Source: Bacteroidales bacterium Bact_22
Lineage (GTDB): Bacteria; Bacteroidota; Bacteroidia; Bacteroidales; F082
DNA length: 59,558 nucleotides
Reading direction: 5' to 3'
NCBI GenBank assembly: GCA_001603665.1
Contig: LUZN01000002.1
Location: 1 to 59,558 of the forward strand
Below are positions 4,504 through 41,395 of this stretch, one piece after another (position 1 is the first letter of the stretch; every line of letters begins with the position of its first letter). The notes beneath the pieces are model-generated. The model saw only the letters and a list, made by a program, of their open reading frames with translations. It was not told the DNA's origin and searched no databases. Made by a program: the position numbers and the translations under genes.

Positions 4504-5034
4504 ATGAAAAACAGGAATATTATAAATATCGTGCGCTATCTTTTTCCATGCGGGGAAATGATTTTGGGCTCGTTTGAAGGGAAACTGTGCCTTTGCGATT
4601 GGGCTGATGGTAAGCGGCGTGCTTCAGTTGACCAGCGTTTGCAAAGAATCTTGAATGCCAACTTTGTTGAGGGCTCTTCGGATGTTATAGAAAGGGCTAG
4701 CCAACAGCTAAACGAATATTTTTTGAATCAACGTCGTAATTTCGATATTCCTTTATTATTTGTCGGGACTGATTTTCAAAAGAAAGTTTGGAACGAATTA
4801 TTGAAAATCCCGTACGGGAAGACCATTTCGTATGGTGAACTGGCTCAACGAATTGGCAAGCCGAATTCAGTCCGTGCTGTCGCTAATACCAACGCAGTCA
4901 ATGCAATAAGCATCATAGCACCATGTCATCGCGTCATCGGCAGCGATGGCACTTTGACTGGCTACGGTGGAGGTTTGGAAAGGAAAAGATATTTATTGAA
5001 TATGGAGAAAAAACATTATCTTTGCAAAAAATAA
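4504..5034 (+). CDS. ogt: Methylated-DNA--[protein]-cysteine S-methyltransferase
   Basis: A 176-residue suicide repair protein that moves the methyl group from O6-methylguanine (or O4-methylthymine) to its own cysteine. The PCHRVIG active-site motif is present with acceptor Cys141, preceded by the helix-turn-helix region TISYGELAQRIGKPNSVRAV. The N-terminal 85 residues form the usual ribonuclease-like domain. Length fits Ogt/MGMT and there is no Ada regulatory domain. The ATG directly follows the DUF1905 stop. The C_GCAxxG_C_C gene follows after 4 nt. Confidence 0.95.
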   Translation: MKNRNIINIVRYLFPCGEMILGSFEGKLCLCDWADGKRRASVDQRLQRILNANFVEGSSDVIERASQQLNEYFLNQRRNFDIPLLFVGTDFQKKVWNELLKIPYGKTISYGELAQRIGKPNSVRAVANTNAVNAISIIAPCHRVIGSDGTLTGYGGGLERKRYLLNMEKKHYLCKK

Positions 5035-5038
5035 AATC

Positions 5039-5422
5039 ATGAAATCAAGAATTTCGGAAGCAGTGGAGAAGAAAAACTGCGGCTATAACTGCGCGCAGGC
5101 TTTGCTTTGCACGTATTGCGACCTCGCTGGTCTTGACGAAGAGACGGCAAGAAACCTCGGTAGCGCGTTCGGCCTCGGAATGGGTAACATGGAAGGCACT
5201 TGCGGAGCTATCACAGGCGCTGGAATGGTGCTGAGTCTGGCGTCCGACGACAGAGTGAAGTCTATCCGTGGCATGAAACAGATTATGAATAAGTTTCAGC
5301 TTCGAAACGGTGCCACGCAATGTAAGATGCTGAAAGGCGTCGGTACTGGCAGGGTGCTTCGCGAATGCTCCGACTGCGTGGCCGATGCCGCCGAATTTCT
5401 TGAAGAGGAGTTGGAAAAATAG
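5039..5422 (+). CDS. C_GCAxxG_C_C family protein
   Basis: A 127-residue cysteine-rich protein of the C_GCAxxG_C_C family (TIGR01909 type). The conserved pattern is seen: CGYNCAQALLC near residues 14-24, GTCGAITGAGMVLSL near 54-68, and a C-terminal pair in ECSDCVADAA. Members are small, presumably redox or metal binding, and common in anaerobes; the function is unknown. It sits 4 nt after ogt and 6 nt before the dikinase gene, so the four genes look like one transcription unit. Confidence 0.85.
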   Translation: MKSRISEAVEKKNCGYNCAQALLCTYCDLAGLDEETARNLGSAFGLGMGNMEGTCGAITGAGMVLSLASDDRVKSIRGMKQIMNKFQLRNGATQCKMLKGVGTGRVLRECSDCVADAAEFLEEELEK

Positions 5423-5428
5423 TTTATC

Positions 5429-8400
5429 ATGAGCGAGACATTCAAATCACAGGCGCTGGAGGCAAATTTGGCGCAGACTCGATACAAAGACATCTTCATT
5501 CCTGAAGAGCATCAGGCGTTTATTGCATTGAGCGCCAATTACTTCGGCATAAATAAGCGCGCTAAGGAGTGTGTCACAGAATACCATCATCCGCTGTCGA
5601 ACCACACCTTTGTGACTGAGGAACTGCGTAAGATTTTGATGGACGATTTCTGGTTTTATACCCGCGATGATGTTCCGGCCGACACGCTGAAGCTGCCTCT
5701 CGAGATGATGCGAAGTCTTCTGAAACCTGAAGTGGCGCTGAAATTGCGGCTTAATGTCGTTGTCACTTTGCTGGAATTCGCAGGTCAGGTTTACACCAAA
5801 TCACCAAAGCATTCCAATCTTATTGAATTGACATTCAATATCTTAGAAGATAAATTTGAATCGAATAAAGATTGTTATATTCTCGCAACGAAACATGCAG
5901 AGCGTTATCTGGATTGTGTAGCAAAAGATGAGAAATTCAGCAATTCGGCTTGCAGTCTGTTGAGAATGATGCTTCAGGAGAATTATCGTTATTGGCAGTC
6001 GACATCGGAGGTTGAAAAATGGGTTTCGGATAACGAAAAACTGCTTTCCGATGAGGAAAAAATAGTGATTATTGATGAGGTTGGAAAGCCGTATTTCGAT
6101 GATTTGAATAAAAATTTAAAGGCGGCCAAGACTTGGGACGTCCTTGCGGAAATGCCTCATTTTGAACAGGTTGCGAAGCGTTTTACCGAGTCGGAAAAGC
6201 TGTTCGGACACTTCATCACTAAGTTCCATTATGTGTTTTATCTGCTGCATCTTCCAGGGATGGAAAACCAGCGCGAGCGTCTGATTTGGAACATGGACCG
6301 CATGATGCGCGACGCCATCGATGAGATGCCGCAGGATGAGCTGATTCCGTTTATCGACACGATCTTCAGTCTGGCCAAGGAATTACGTAAGAATTACACC
6401 TCGGCGGTGCTCGATTTCCAGCTTACATTGGGTAAGAAAATCATCGACATCGACACTACCGAGATGAAGGAGATCGTCAATCATTTTGAGAAACGGTTGA
6501 TTGAATTCGGCTTCGTCACGCCAGGCAATGTGTTTGTAAATGAAGACTGGCAACTGTCAGTAAATACTGACCATATCAAGAATATTCGGGTGTGGCTTGA
6601 GCTCATCGAATACTCAAAGACACCTCTCGACAAGCTGCTTTCCTCGTTGATTGTCAACCTGAAACTCGGCGGCATCTTTATTAGCGATACCGACCTTTTC
6701 CAGAGGGAGATTACCAAGATTTTGAATTCCAACATCTCGCCTTATTATAAAAAGGTGAAACAGCTCTCGCGAATCTTCCCAGTGTATTTCAACGAGATAG
6801 GAGCGGAGGGCGAGATTCGTAACGTCACTACCAATATGGATGAGATCTCGCTTCGTCAGGATAAGCTGGTGCATTTCTTGAGGAAACAGGTTCACACCGA
6901 GAGCAACAACACTCTTATCGACTTGACTTTCAAGGTGTTCCAGTTCTGGAGCGACGGCAATCTCGACGATTTGAAGCCGATTTTGCCGAACAACGTGTTC
7001 GAGTCGATTGACATGGAGAGTCAATATTTCGTTCACGTCCATAACCTTGTGCAGACGATGTGCGAGATATCGTGTCTGAATCCCGAGGATATTCTGATGC
7101 TTTCGCGCGACGACTATGAAAATCTCATCAAAAAAGCAGCCGATAAGATAAGTCTCGATGAAGAGTCATATAAGCGTGAGCATCTGCGTTTGATGGATAT
7201 CCGCGACTTGTATGCTTATCTCCGTGAGAAATATAGCTTCGAAAGTGTCAATATTTTCGCGTATTTGCGCAATTTCCCGTTCATTCCCGACAAGGATATC
7301 GACGATTTCGAAAAGGTTTATAAGGAAAAGAATTTCGGCAAGTCGCTGAGCATGATTTACGCCTTCATGAACAAGCTGAAGGAGATAATTTTCAATCCGG
7401 AAGTCAGCGAGGGCTGGGAAAATATCTATCACAAACGTCATATCGCCATCGGAATCCCGTCGATGTACGGCACCTATCGTGAGAACAAATTCGAGGCAAT
7501 GGGCTTGACGTTCAGACTCGAACGTGTGGCGACGCAGCTCATGGAGCAGGTGGTGCAGAGCATCAACCTCGAGTACATCTCTGAGCGGACGCTGAATCAG
7601 ATTTACATCATTTTGCGTTATTTCCGCGACGGTCTGGCACTCGACGGCATCACCAACCAGAGTTTCAACTCGAAACTCGACATGCTGAGGTATTCGTTGA
7701 CCTCGCGAAGCTTCTCGTTTGGCCAGTATATCAACATCTTCCAGTTCATTGCGGAAGACGTCAGACGTATAATTATCAAGTACTTCCTGAAGTCGTACGA
7801 ATACCCGCTGAAGGTCGTCATTCCGCAGCTTTTCGACCCAGAAAACAAGCTCAGCGAGCGCGACATGGTGGCTCTTATCAGTAAGAAATCGGAGGAGTTC
7901 CATCGTGACATGCTCTCCGACGCTTTCCTGATGCAGCCGTTGGATAACTTCATCGGCCGAATCCTTAATTCCTTGAGGACTATGGAGGCCACGCTCGACC
8001 ACAAGCTCATCAGCGACATCATGACATACAACTCCGACATGCTGATAAGTCCGTTCTGGCGTTCGACGCCGAAGATCGACAACCAGGTGTTTATCGGCAA
8101 TAAGGCAAACAACCTGAAGACCTTGTATTTGAAGGGAATGCCGGTGCCTCCGGGCTTTGTCATCACCACCGAGGCTTTCCGTCGTAACGAGACTATCAAC
8201 GCTATCCCGGAGCTGCAGAACGAGATTCACGGGATGATCAAGAAATACATCGCCGAGCTGGAGCAGATCTCGGGCCGTAAGTTCAACAACCCGGAGGCAC
8301 CGCTGCTGGTCTCTGTGCGCTCGGGAACGGCTATCTCGATGCCGGGAGCCATGGATACGTTCCTCAATGTAGGCTTGAACGACGAGCTCGTCGAAAAAGT

Positions 8401-39081: not shown

Positions 39082-39536
39082 TAATAAAAGGTGATTCGAA
39101 GAAAGAATTATACGAAAATCTAATTCCTCAAATCGCAGCTTTGATTGAAGGCGAGACTGACGTAATCGCCAATATGGCCAACGTCTCAGCGTGTTTGAAA
39201 GACACATTTAACTTCTGGTGGGTAGGTTTCTACCGTGTCCTCGGTGATGCGCTTGTTCTCGGTCCTTTCCAAGGTCCGTTAGCCTGCACACGTATCAGTA
39301 AAGGTAAAGGAGTTTGTGGCACTGCTTGGCAGCAGGCTAAAACCGTTATCGTTCCTGATGTCGACGCTTTCCCGGGACATATTGCCTGCAGCAGTCTTAC
39401 AAAATCGGAGATTGTGGTGCCAATAATTAATAAAGGTGTAGTGACAGCGGTTCTCGACATCGACAGTGAGAGAGCCGGCAATTTCGATGAAACCGATAAG
39501 TTTTATCTTGAAAAGATGGCGGACTTATTCGCCTAA
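39066..39536 (+). CDS. msrC: Free methionine-(R)-sulfoxide reductase (GAF domain)
   Basis: A 156-residue cytoplasmic GAF-domain enzyme that reduces free methionine-R-sulfoxide. The three conserved cysteines are C74, C84 and C108 (ACTRI, GVCGTAW, HIACSS), with the same spacing as I recall in E. coli fRMsr. Length is normal. It is the last gene of the DUF456-rarA-menG-menA operon, overlapping menA by 16 nt. It overlaps the convergent sigma-factor gene by 12 nt, so no terminator fits between them. Confidence 0.93.
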   Translation: MSENLIIKGDSKKELYENLIPQIAALIEGETDVIANMANVSACLKDTFNFWWVGFYRVLGDALVLGPFQGPLACTRISKGKGVCGTAWQQAKTVIVPDVDAFPGHIACSSLTKSEIVVPIINKGVVTAVLDIDSERAGNFDETDKFYLEKMADLFA

Positions 39537-40625
39537 GACCCTAAGGAAATCGGCAGGAAGCCACACGTTGTGCATGCGCACTGCTTCTTTGAACAAAGGA
39601 GCGATCTCGGCTGCCGTAAAGCCTGCAATGCCGCATCCGATGCGCGTCACGAGGAAGTCCTTCTCGGGATGATCAGCAGCAAAAGCAATAAATTTGTCAA
39701 CATAAGGTTTGATTGTCTCCACACCGCCTTGCATCGTCGGGATGGCGTACGACTGTCCCTGAATACCATCGCCATTGCCCATCACAGCGCCGAATTTCAC
39801 GCGAGCCGTAAAAGCGGCGCCACCTGCGTGATAACCCTGAAGATTGCTGCCAAAAACAAAAATCTCATTCGGCTTGAGCGCGATGATTTCGTCCGGAGTG
39901 ATTCTTCTGGTTCCCATATATACCGATTTTTCTGACATAAATTTCGCACCACCAAAGCTGAATCTGGCTTTTGCGCCACATTTCGGAGCCGGCATGTATT
40001 CCGCCTCTGTTTCTCCGGCCTCAATTTCGTACATTGCTCCTTGATAGAGGCCTTCCGAATAATTTTCGACCACATAAGGAGTGATGAACTCGTCCATCAT
40101 TTTCTTATAACGCTGGTTTACAGCAGCCGGCGTCATGTGAATCATCTCAGCCACCTCTTTCTGCGGATAGCCGGAAAACAGCACCAACTGCACTATTTGC
40201 TGCATGATTTCGTCGTTTTTATAATGTAACGACGCCGCATCGGCTACCTGCTGCATCATGCCTTCCTCATAATCAGTAGAGCGAATGTATTCCAAAACAT
40301 CGTCTGCTGAAGAGTCGCTAAGCTGCGCAAACTCCTTGTTATACGCCTTAAGCGCATCAAGCACGACATATCTGAAGCCATTGATCATCCAAGTCGAAAG
40401 TTTCATGCCTCTCGGACGGTCGAGAAGCGGCTTGAACTCATGAACAAGCAAACTGATGTAATATTCGTGCGCCAATGAATAAAAATCAAGGCCGGTCTTG
40501 TTGCAAAGCTGGTATTTATGGTCGAAAATATCATACGCTTTGCGACAATAACCGTAAAAATATTCCTTCGTGATGTATTCGTCAAAGGAACAGAAACCGT
40601 TGATAATCAATTCATCATCTATCAT
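39525..40625 (-). CDS. Sigma-70-like protein fused to A1S_2505/macro-like domain
   Basis: A 366-residue two-part protein. Residues 1-180 look like an ECF-type sigma factor: a region 2-like helical segment (about 20-95, with KLSTWMINGFRYVVLDALKAY near its end) and a region 4-like HTH (YPQKEVAEMIHMTPAAVNQR, 153-172). An Ala/Glu linker follows. Residues 250-350 match the A1S_2505-type domain: VFGSNLQGYHAGGAA, GIQGQSYAIPT, VTRIGCGIAGF. I recall this domain from phage-associated proteins, and it resembles macro (ADP-ribose binding) folds. The -7 box lies only 4 nt before the ATG, so the mRNA is probably leaderless. It is divergent from a vWA gene. The joint function is unknown. Confidence 0.8.
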   Translation of the reverse strand: MIDDELIINGFCSFDEYITKEYFYGYCRKAYDIFDHKYQLCNKTGLDFYSLAHEYYISLLVHEFKPLLDRPRGMKLSTWMINGFRYVVLDALKAYNKEFAQLSDSSADDVLEYIRSTDYEEGMMQQVADAASLHYKNDEIMQQIVQLVLFSGYPQKEVAEMIHMTPAAVNQRYKKMMDEFITPYVVENYSEGLYQGAMYEIEAGETEAEYMPAPKCGAKARFSFGGAKFMSEKSVYMGTRRITPDEIIALKPNEIFVFGSNLQGYHAGGAAFTARVKFGAVMGNGDGIQGQSYAIPTMQGGVETIKPYVDKFIAFAADHPEKDFLVTRIGCGIAGFTAAEIAPLFKEAVRMHNVWLPADFLRVLGE

Positions 40626-40629
40626 ATTG

Positions 40630-40637
40630 CAAAATTA
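40630..40637 (-). promoter_or_regulatory. -7 box of sigma/macro-like gene
   Basis: Minus-strand TAATTTTG, exact consensus, ending 4 nt before the ATG at 40625. It implies a leaderless mRNA. No -33 TTTG is found. Confidence 0.5.
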
Positions 40638-40711
40638 ATAAAAATTTTTTACAGTTCTGCTTAATTTTTTTTGAAAATCGTCTTCTTAATGATAAAAGAT
40701 GATTGAAATTC

Positions 40712-40742
40712 AAATTTAATATTCACAATTTAAAATTTAAAG
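40712..40742 (+). repeat. AT-rich ATTTAAA-type array upstream of vWA gene
   Basis: Degenerate units AAATTCA, AATTTAA, ATTCACA, ATTTAAA, ATTTAAA lie directly before the vWA start codon. This is the only copy of the word found at a 5' end. Confidence 0.4.
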
Positions 40743-40744
40743 AC

Positions 40745-41395
40745 ATGGAAAACACAACAAAAACAACACAAACAAAGAAAGTTTACAACTTAATCATCGT
40801 CGACGAATCAGGATCGATGAGCATTATCCGCGAACAGGCCTTGGCCGGACTTAACGAGACAATCGAGACATGCCAGAAGATGCAGGAATTGCATCCTGAA
40901 CTTGAACAGCGTATCACCTTGATTTCCTTTGACAGCAATCATTTTAAGATTCATCTCGACAATGAACCTGCCGGAAAGGCCCGCAAACTTACAACCGATG
41001 ACTATCGTCCGAATGCAGCCACACCGCTCTACGACGCGATAGGCAAAGGAATAGCCAAACTCAACGCCCAGACTGGCACTGACGACAATGTCCTCGTAAC
41101 CATAATCACCGACGGTGAAGAGAACTGCAGTCAGGAATACAACCTGAAACTCGTGAAAAACCTCATCGAGAAACAGAAACAGCAGGGATGGACGTTTACC
41201 TTGATCGGCACAGATAATCTTGACGTTGAAGGAATGGCTGGTAGCTTGTCAATCGACAACCATCTGGCGTTCACCGAAGACGCGCCGTCGACAGCAAAGA
41301 TGTTTGCAAAGGAACGCAAGGCCAGAGCAAGATACTACGCAAGTGTGGCTTGCGGTAAGGCGATGGAAGAAGGTAGCTATTTCAGCGAAAGCTAA
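40745..41395 (+). CDS. vWA-domain protein (TerY-like)
   Basis: A 216-residue cytoplasmic von Willebrand A domain protein with an intact MIDAS motif D20-x-S22-x-S24 (DESGSMS), a following TPLYDAIGKG and TIITDGEENC. Single-domain cytoplasmic vWA proteins of this type occur in tellurite/stress (TerY) clusters and with MoxR ATPases, as metal-dependent protein-binding modules. The ATG at 40745 is used; an upstream in-frame ATG at 40703 would translate the AT-rich array. It is divergent from the sigma/macro-like gene, and its stop codon overlaps that of the convergent transporter gene. Confidence 0.88.
   Translation: MENTTKTTQTKKVYNLIIVDESGSMSIIREQALAGLNETIETCQKMQELHPELEQRITLISFDSNHFKIHLDNEPAGKARKLTTDDYRPNAATPLYDAIGKGIAKLNAQTGTDDNVLVTIITDGEENCSQEYNLKLVKNLIEKQKQQGWTFTLIGTDNLDVEGMAGSLSIDNHLAFTEDAPSTAKMFAKERKARARYYASVACGKAMEEGSYFSES

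Follow-up and report, generated by a model that had tools for sequence, protein, structure and literature searches.

NrtR, an ADP-ribose-responsive repressor of the Nudix-helix-turn-helix type, holds a sensor fold for nicotinamide adenine dinucleotide (NAD) or ADP-ribose and a transcription module in one polypeptide; background on it is given in the available part of the AraR paper (PMC4666351). The systems centred on ADP-ribosylglycohydrolase (ARG), proposed to reverse viral ADP-ribosylation, are described from actinobacteria, planctomycetes and proteobacteria in the available sections of PMC9503650; there, Nudix or WYL sensors, both in regulators of the repressor type, alternate in role. The words 'sigma' and 'Bacteroid' are absent from the main text of that paper. 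Extracytoplasmic function (ECF) sigma factors with C-terminal sensor domains combine a sigma2-sigma4 core with a putative controlling C-terminal domain and need no anti-sigma gene; the accessible portion of the review on them (PMC8999054) mentions no macro or ADP-ribose extension. Here, we describe a locus in the window, the 59,558-nucleotide stretch of contig LUZN01000002.1 of Bacteroidales bacterium Bact_22 that was analyzed, in which a sigma-like part and a macro-fold domain are encoded as one polypeptide, divergently from a gene for a von Willebrand factor A (vWA) protein. The genome (2.06 Mb, 99% complete) belongs to the Bacteroidales, and the fusion is present in some gut and rumen bacteria. 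Our analysis confirmed that the sigma-macro fusion next to the vWA gene is a real observation.

We lean, with modest confidence, toward a one-component ECF-like sigma factor that is controlled by an ADP-ribose-type ligand and has a near-private target. The C-terminal macrodomain would bind ADP-ribose or a close relative, be it free, a derivative or an ADP-ribosylated macromolecule, and its occupancy would release or restrain the sigma part through the flexible linker. An inhibition that the ligand lifts is the sign of control that we favor. The active sigma part would bring RNA polymerase to the promoter with CTTAATT and TCTT-type blocks that lies ahead of the divergent vWA gene, and the vWA protein, with a NUDIX enzyme and an ADP-ribosylglycohydrolase in some relatives, may handle ADP-ribosylated proteins or ADP-ribose.

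Like NrtR, this protein would unite an NAD/ADP-ribose sensor with a transcription module. Its sensor is a macro fold instead of a Nudix fold, and with a sigma-like transcription part it would activate where NrtR represses. NrtR genes also adjoin a vWA-macro fusion in the same genus and appear to control that sister operon. Like the ECF factors with sensor extensions, as far as the available part of PMC8999054 describes them, the protein has a sigma2-sigma4-like core with a putative controlling C-terminal domain and would need no anti-sigma gene. With the ARG systems, in the portion of PMC9503650 at hand, the locus shares a vWA gene and a macro domain, and its relatives share ARG, a Nudix-helix-turn-helix regulator and phosphatase fusions. 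Unlike those systems, the window locus contains no ARG gene and no NrtR winged-helix regulator (WYL regulators were not searched for), and because no ARG gene is there, we did not place it among them. The best reading is that the sigma-macro locus is a variant of the published ADP-ribose-handling modules with a sigma factor instead of a Nudix or WYL regulator. The first-pass annotation had called the locus its best candidate for an undescribed system, a label that is too strong given these related modules; nevertheless, our literature searches, whose coverage excluded most subscription journals and preprints, found no published account of a macro-fused sigma factor.

Table 1. Features of the sigma-macro locus and of related loci. 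Positions are those of the window unless a locus is named.
Feature	Position	Strand	Basis or remark
Sigma-macro fusion gene	39525..40625	(-)	Open reading frame (ORF), 366 residues
Sigma-70/ECF-like part, residues 1-190	40056..40625	(-)	Helices like sigma2 and sigma4; TIGR02937, Sigma70_r4_2, structure model
Linker, residues 191-239	39909..40055	(-)	Low model confidence; predicted local distance difference test (pLDDT) < 50 at 190-238
A1S_2505 / macro-fold domain, residues 240-366	39528..39908	(-)	Profile match and macro fold
TAnnTTTG box	40630..40637	(-)	5-12 bases upstream of sigma start codon; similar boxes ahead of many relatives
Promoter-like element of vWA gene	40655..40702	(+)	CTTAATT at 40660-40666, TCTTCTTAATGATAAA at 40681-40696; conserved
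vWA gene, 216 residues	40745..41395	(+)	Likely ATG start; metal ion-dependent adhesion site (MIDAS) intact
vWA, NUDIX and ADP-ribosylglycohydrolase genes	L035 744-2885	(-)	Consecutive
Sigma, vWA and promoter, macro absent	L037 5239-6810		Sigma open frame of 271 residues
Second promoter-like site of G350	L174 1204-1247		34.8 bits
SIMPL/DUF541 second-copy region, Hallella mizrahii	L175 3078-3476	(-)	
SIMPL/DUF541 second-copy region, Prevotella AGR2160	L176 2623-3300	(-)	
Gene pair downstream of sigma-macro	L041 7202-8283		
Gene pair downstream of sigma-macro	L045 7244-8318		
Tandem units	L036 5713-5990		
Viral macro domains	L121, L122, L123, around 4986-5440		
Domain behind macro domain	L073 6463-6909		No Pfam match

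The domain reading of the first-pass annotation, sigma-70-like at residues 1-180 and A1S_2505/macro-like at residues 250-350, was upheld on both counts. The window protein alone matches TIGR02937 weakly (E 8e-6, below the cut-off); all 26 family members match TIGR02937 (best 2.3e-10), and all 26 match Sigma70_r4_2. Pfam sigma region 2 (PF04542) was neither among the matches of the window protein nor among the 25 of 42 families listed for the alignment. An A1S_2505 domain (E 1.3e-41) makes up the C-terminal part, and structure comparison supported its macro fold, a shape it shares with known ADP-ribose binders; Pfam Macro (PF01661) was matched by only 1 of 27 sequences (E 0.26). An AlphaFold2 model built from a 66-sequence alignment (mean pLDDT 78) has two confident parts on either side of low-confidence residues 190-238. 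In the modeled sigma part, regions resembling sigma2 and then sigma4 follow each other, and the structure matches listed were mostly sigma factors, so a sigma-like fold of the N-terminal part is supported by the prediction. It is quite unlikely, in our view, that this part derives from a sigma factor but now serves as a DNA-binding regulator without sigma function, with the element ahead of the vWA gene serving as an operator for activation or repression. In favor of such a regulator, the best conserved match is the region 4 helix-turn-helix, region 2 is divergent, and the C-terminal helices of the sigma part are matched by KorA-type regulators as well. Against it, TIGR02937 covers both sigma parts in all 26 members, and region 2 of SigK superposes on residues 3-95 with a root-mean-square deviation of 2.7.

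Linkage to the vWA gene was assessed in 29 distinct sigma-part loci (the window, L003, L004, L031-L036, L037 and L038-L056; L002 and L033 being one locus). A divergent vWA gene stands in 28 of the 29, or in 27 of 28 when sigma-macro loci alone are counted; L040 is the sole sigma locus among the 29 without one. The window's type of vWA is divergent from sigma in 26 loci. L035 and L036 carry another vWA at the same place (Pfam VWA, E 6.6e-9, in L035), and its similarity to the window's vWA was undetectable (E 34). This recurrence, together with the replacement by a different family in two loci, rules out that the genes are chance neighbors. The window's own vWA protein, which the first-pass annotation had called TerY-like, matched only VWA_2 (E 0.0043) and, weakly, a cobaltochelatase vWA. 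The start of the vWA match is mostly about 60-115 bases away from sigma; the distance is larger in L054 (about 265) and in L041 and L045 (about 870 each). L041 and L045 also have two related genes immediately downstream of sigma-macro, the first of which matches DUF488 in L041, and L036 has tandem units of ~78 bases upstream of its sigma-macro gene, inside the longest open frame of that gene.

The vWA gene is preceded on its own strand by a promoter-like element that the first-pass annotation had overlooked. Its consensus consists of a (G/C/A)CTTAATTTTT block followed by a TCTTTAAAGA-like block at a fixed spacing (23-24 bases between the starts of GCTT and the second-block CTT; about 21-22 from CTTAATT to TCTT). 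All 27 loci examined have it, 24 by pattern and three by eye (L031, L032 and L035), and it lies 43-106 bases ahead of the start of the vWA match. Two blocks at a fixed offset and at this distance resemble -35 and -10 boxes, which again argues against an operator. The element remains beside the vWA gene despite inserted DNA in L036, L041, L045 and L054, even though the vWA of L036 is not detectably related. The element makes the vWA gene a likely sigma target, and not only the protein partner that the first-pass annotation had seen in it; we infer that the sigma part reads this sequence.

ECF factors with C-terminal extensions often have private targets. A sequence-only model of the element, R1, made from 26 sites, gave a single strong site (39.3 bits; runner-up 14.4) when the whole genome of the window was searched. 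To control for circularity, one matrix was made from 20 sites outside the window's clade and a second from six near sites. The 20-site matrix scored the window site at 41.1 bits (runner-up 15.8) and put the element first in L002 (the L033 locus), L031, L032, L033, L034 and L037. The six-site matrix gave it the top rank in 12 of 13 far loci, marginally so in L038, and missed L041. When 42 genomes were scanned, sites of 24.7 bits or more were present in every one of the 28 that carry the sigma gene. Of the 14 genomes with a vWA-macro fusion, 12 lack a site at E <= 0.01 and the other two have weak ones (17.6 and 18.6 bits); in the 14 fusion loci themselves, R1 had no match at E <= 1. The regulon is small yet not always single, since extra sites occur in three genomes. 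In Hallella mizrahii and Prevotella sp. AGR2160, one additional good site (26.9 and 25.2 bits, respectively) lies just upstream of a SIMPL/DUF541 gene; these genes are homologous (63% identity over 67 residues) and possibly constitute a second regulon member. G350 has a second strong promoter-like site without a clear target gene. The TAnnTTTG box ahead of the sigma gene resembles what we take to be the Bacteroides housekeeping -7 element, which suggests that the sigma gene itself is transcribed from a housekeeping promoter.

Asn261 and His266 of the macro domain do not vary in any of the 66 sequences of set A2 or the 27 of set A4, viral ones included. The macrodomain could therefore be an enzyme and not a sensor, with these two residues acting on some ADP-ribose compound and its expression or location being tied to sigma by the fusion. 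The occurrence of the domain alone or fused to ADP-ribosylglycohydrolase or PARG suggests an activity of its own, and L005, L006, L007 and L057 retain a macro ORF without sigma. Nevertheless, in the alignment to TARG1, the nearest known class, Met298 and Ala334 of the window protein occupy the positions of Lys84 and Asp125, which we take to be catalytic; the first is Met in 65 of 66 A2 rows and the second Ala in all 66. The domain thus differs from TARG1 and DarG-type macrodomains in these residues as well as in its fusion to sigma, and we regard an enzymatic role as unlikely. The first-pass annotation had allowed control by binding or by removal of the ligand; with both TARG1 catalytic positions replaced, removal is less likely than binding. 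The viral contigs L121, L122 and L123, where the macro domain sits within very long frames of 2280-2836 residues, have Lys at the TARG1 Lys84 position.

Overall, the interpretation of the first-pass annotation is partly supported. That the ligand may be ADP-ribose-like gains independent support from the fusions and neighbors of the domain. By sequence similarity, it is joined to ADP-ribosylglycohydrolase-like proteins in L027, L059, L081, L083 and L093, and it is joined to microbial-type PARG in L074, L091 and L105 (PF10021 and TIGR02452 confirmed on L105). In other Bacteroidales, 14 ORFs encode vWA and macro as a single polypeptide (L009, L010, L014, L016-L020, L022-L025, L028 and L063); within the DNA examined, a NUDIX gene lies upstream of all 14 and an ADP-ribosylglycohydrolase downstream of 10. 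In L063, Pfam identifies the NUDIX protein as NrtR (PF21906, E 2e-18); the protein also resembles the NCBIfam model of an ADP-ribose-responsive repressor, with a score under the cut-off of that model. In such genomes of the genus, the NrtR winged-helix domain lies at most about 0.5 kb from the vWA-macro ORF in 14 of 14, and an ADP-ribosylglycohydrolase at most about 1.5 kb from it in 10 of 14. The link to ADP-ribose is clearest at L035: its vWA, NUDIX and ADP-ribosylglycohydrolase genes run on the strand opposite sigma-macro, downstream of the shared promoter element. None of the absences that the first-pass annotation had named as fatal to it (sigma fold, nucleotide-ligand pocket, conserved vWA linkage) was found outright.

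Several observations weigh against ligand control by the macrodomain. At a shared chromosomal site beside GAF and MenA genes, L031-L034 carry the full arrangement, L037 has sigma, vWA and promoter without macro, and L005, L006, L007 and L057 have a stand-alone macro ORF without sigma and vWA. Macro and sigma-vWA are therefore separable, and this speaks most strongly against a tight dependence on macro; L037 would be regulated differently from the full loci. The window's genome has no ADP-ribosylglycohydrolase (PF03747), so none is at the window locus. It also has no NrtR winged-helix domain, and the sigma-macro gene stands in its place. A strict swap of NrtR for sigma-macro was dropped as a main argument. 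Among 24 chosen of the 36 genus genomes, mostly with a macro match, NrtR winged-helix occurs in none of the 4 sigma-macro genomes and in all 14 vWA-macro-fusion genomes (hypergeometric 3e-4, the genomes not being independent), and for ADP-ribosylglycohydrolase the counts are 0 of 4 and 12 of 14. Of the 24 genomes reached through other sigma loci, beyond the genus, 17 carry NrtR winged-helix and 20 ADP-ribosylglycohydrolase, so the exclusion of NrtR is confined to the genus and is not general. These counts, the L037 variant and the missing glycohydrolase and NrtR also fit a self-contained stress pair of sigma and vWA, with macro as an optional passenger and a signal unrelated to ADP-ribose. We consider such a pair improbable, because the macro domain is present in 28 of the 29 distinct sigma loci (L037 is the exception) and because vWA and macro are fused in the 14 ORFs beside NUDIX and ADP-ribosylglycohydrolase genes.

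If ligand control of the sigma part is true, a macrodomain-fused sigma factor joins the known one-component NAD/ADP-ribose regulators, and ADP-ribose-handling modules gain an activating instead of a derepressing logic. The locus suggests a new route by which cells sense NAD or ADP-ribose chemistry. Since the target appears near-private, the genome having a single strong site, two genes and one promoter would suffice to test ligand, promoter and output. The A1S_2505 domain would also gain a function-bearing context. The vWA pairing, the promoter element that follows the vWA gene and the vWA-macro polypeptides with their NUDIX and ADP-ribosylglycohydrolase neighbors are new.

Macro domains occur in phages in general, according to the available part of a jumbo-phage survey (PMC7824862). 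The A1S_2505 domain, labeled only 'phage non-structural protein', matches 407 of 50,697 phage records. As to a phage origin of the whole fusion, none of these records covers more than 80% of the fusion query, and the one that extends furthest into the sigma part is an unannotated 4,012-base faeces record (38.5% identity over residues 2-283). As a long shot, the protein may be a guard sigma factor, whose macrodomain would read ADP-ribosylated proteins, such as RNA polymerase or its partners hit by phage ADP-ribosyltransferases, and whose sigma part, recruited by the very modification with which a phage takes over host transcription, would fire a host repair response from the private promoter.

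The macro-domain tree comprised 119 rows and 128 columns, with L001, L034, L114, L124 and L015 left out and labels covering 10 of the 14 vWA fusions. It requires eight changes for the sigma-fused rows, and the window row falls within a starred set of seven, three sigma-fused and four stand-alone. This mixed set and the eight changes indicate that sigma and macro joined or separated more than once, with too few columns to resolve the events. The unmatched domain behind the macro domain of L073 resembles parts of L093, L105 and L111.
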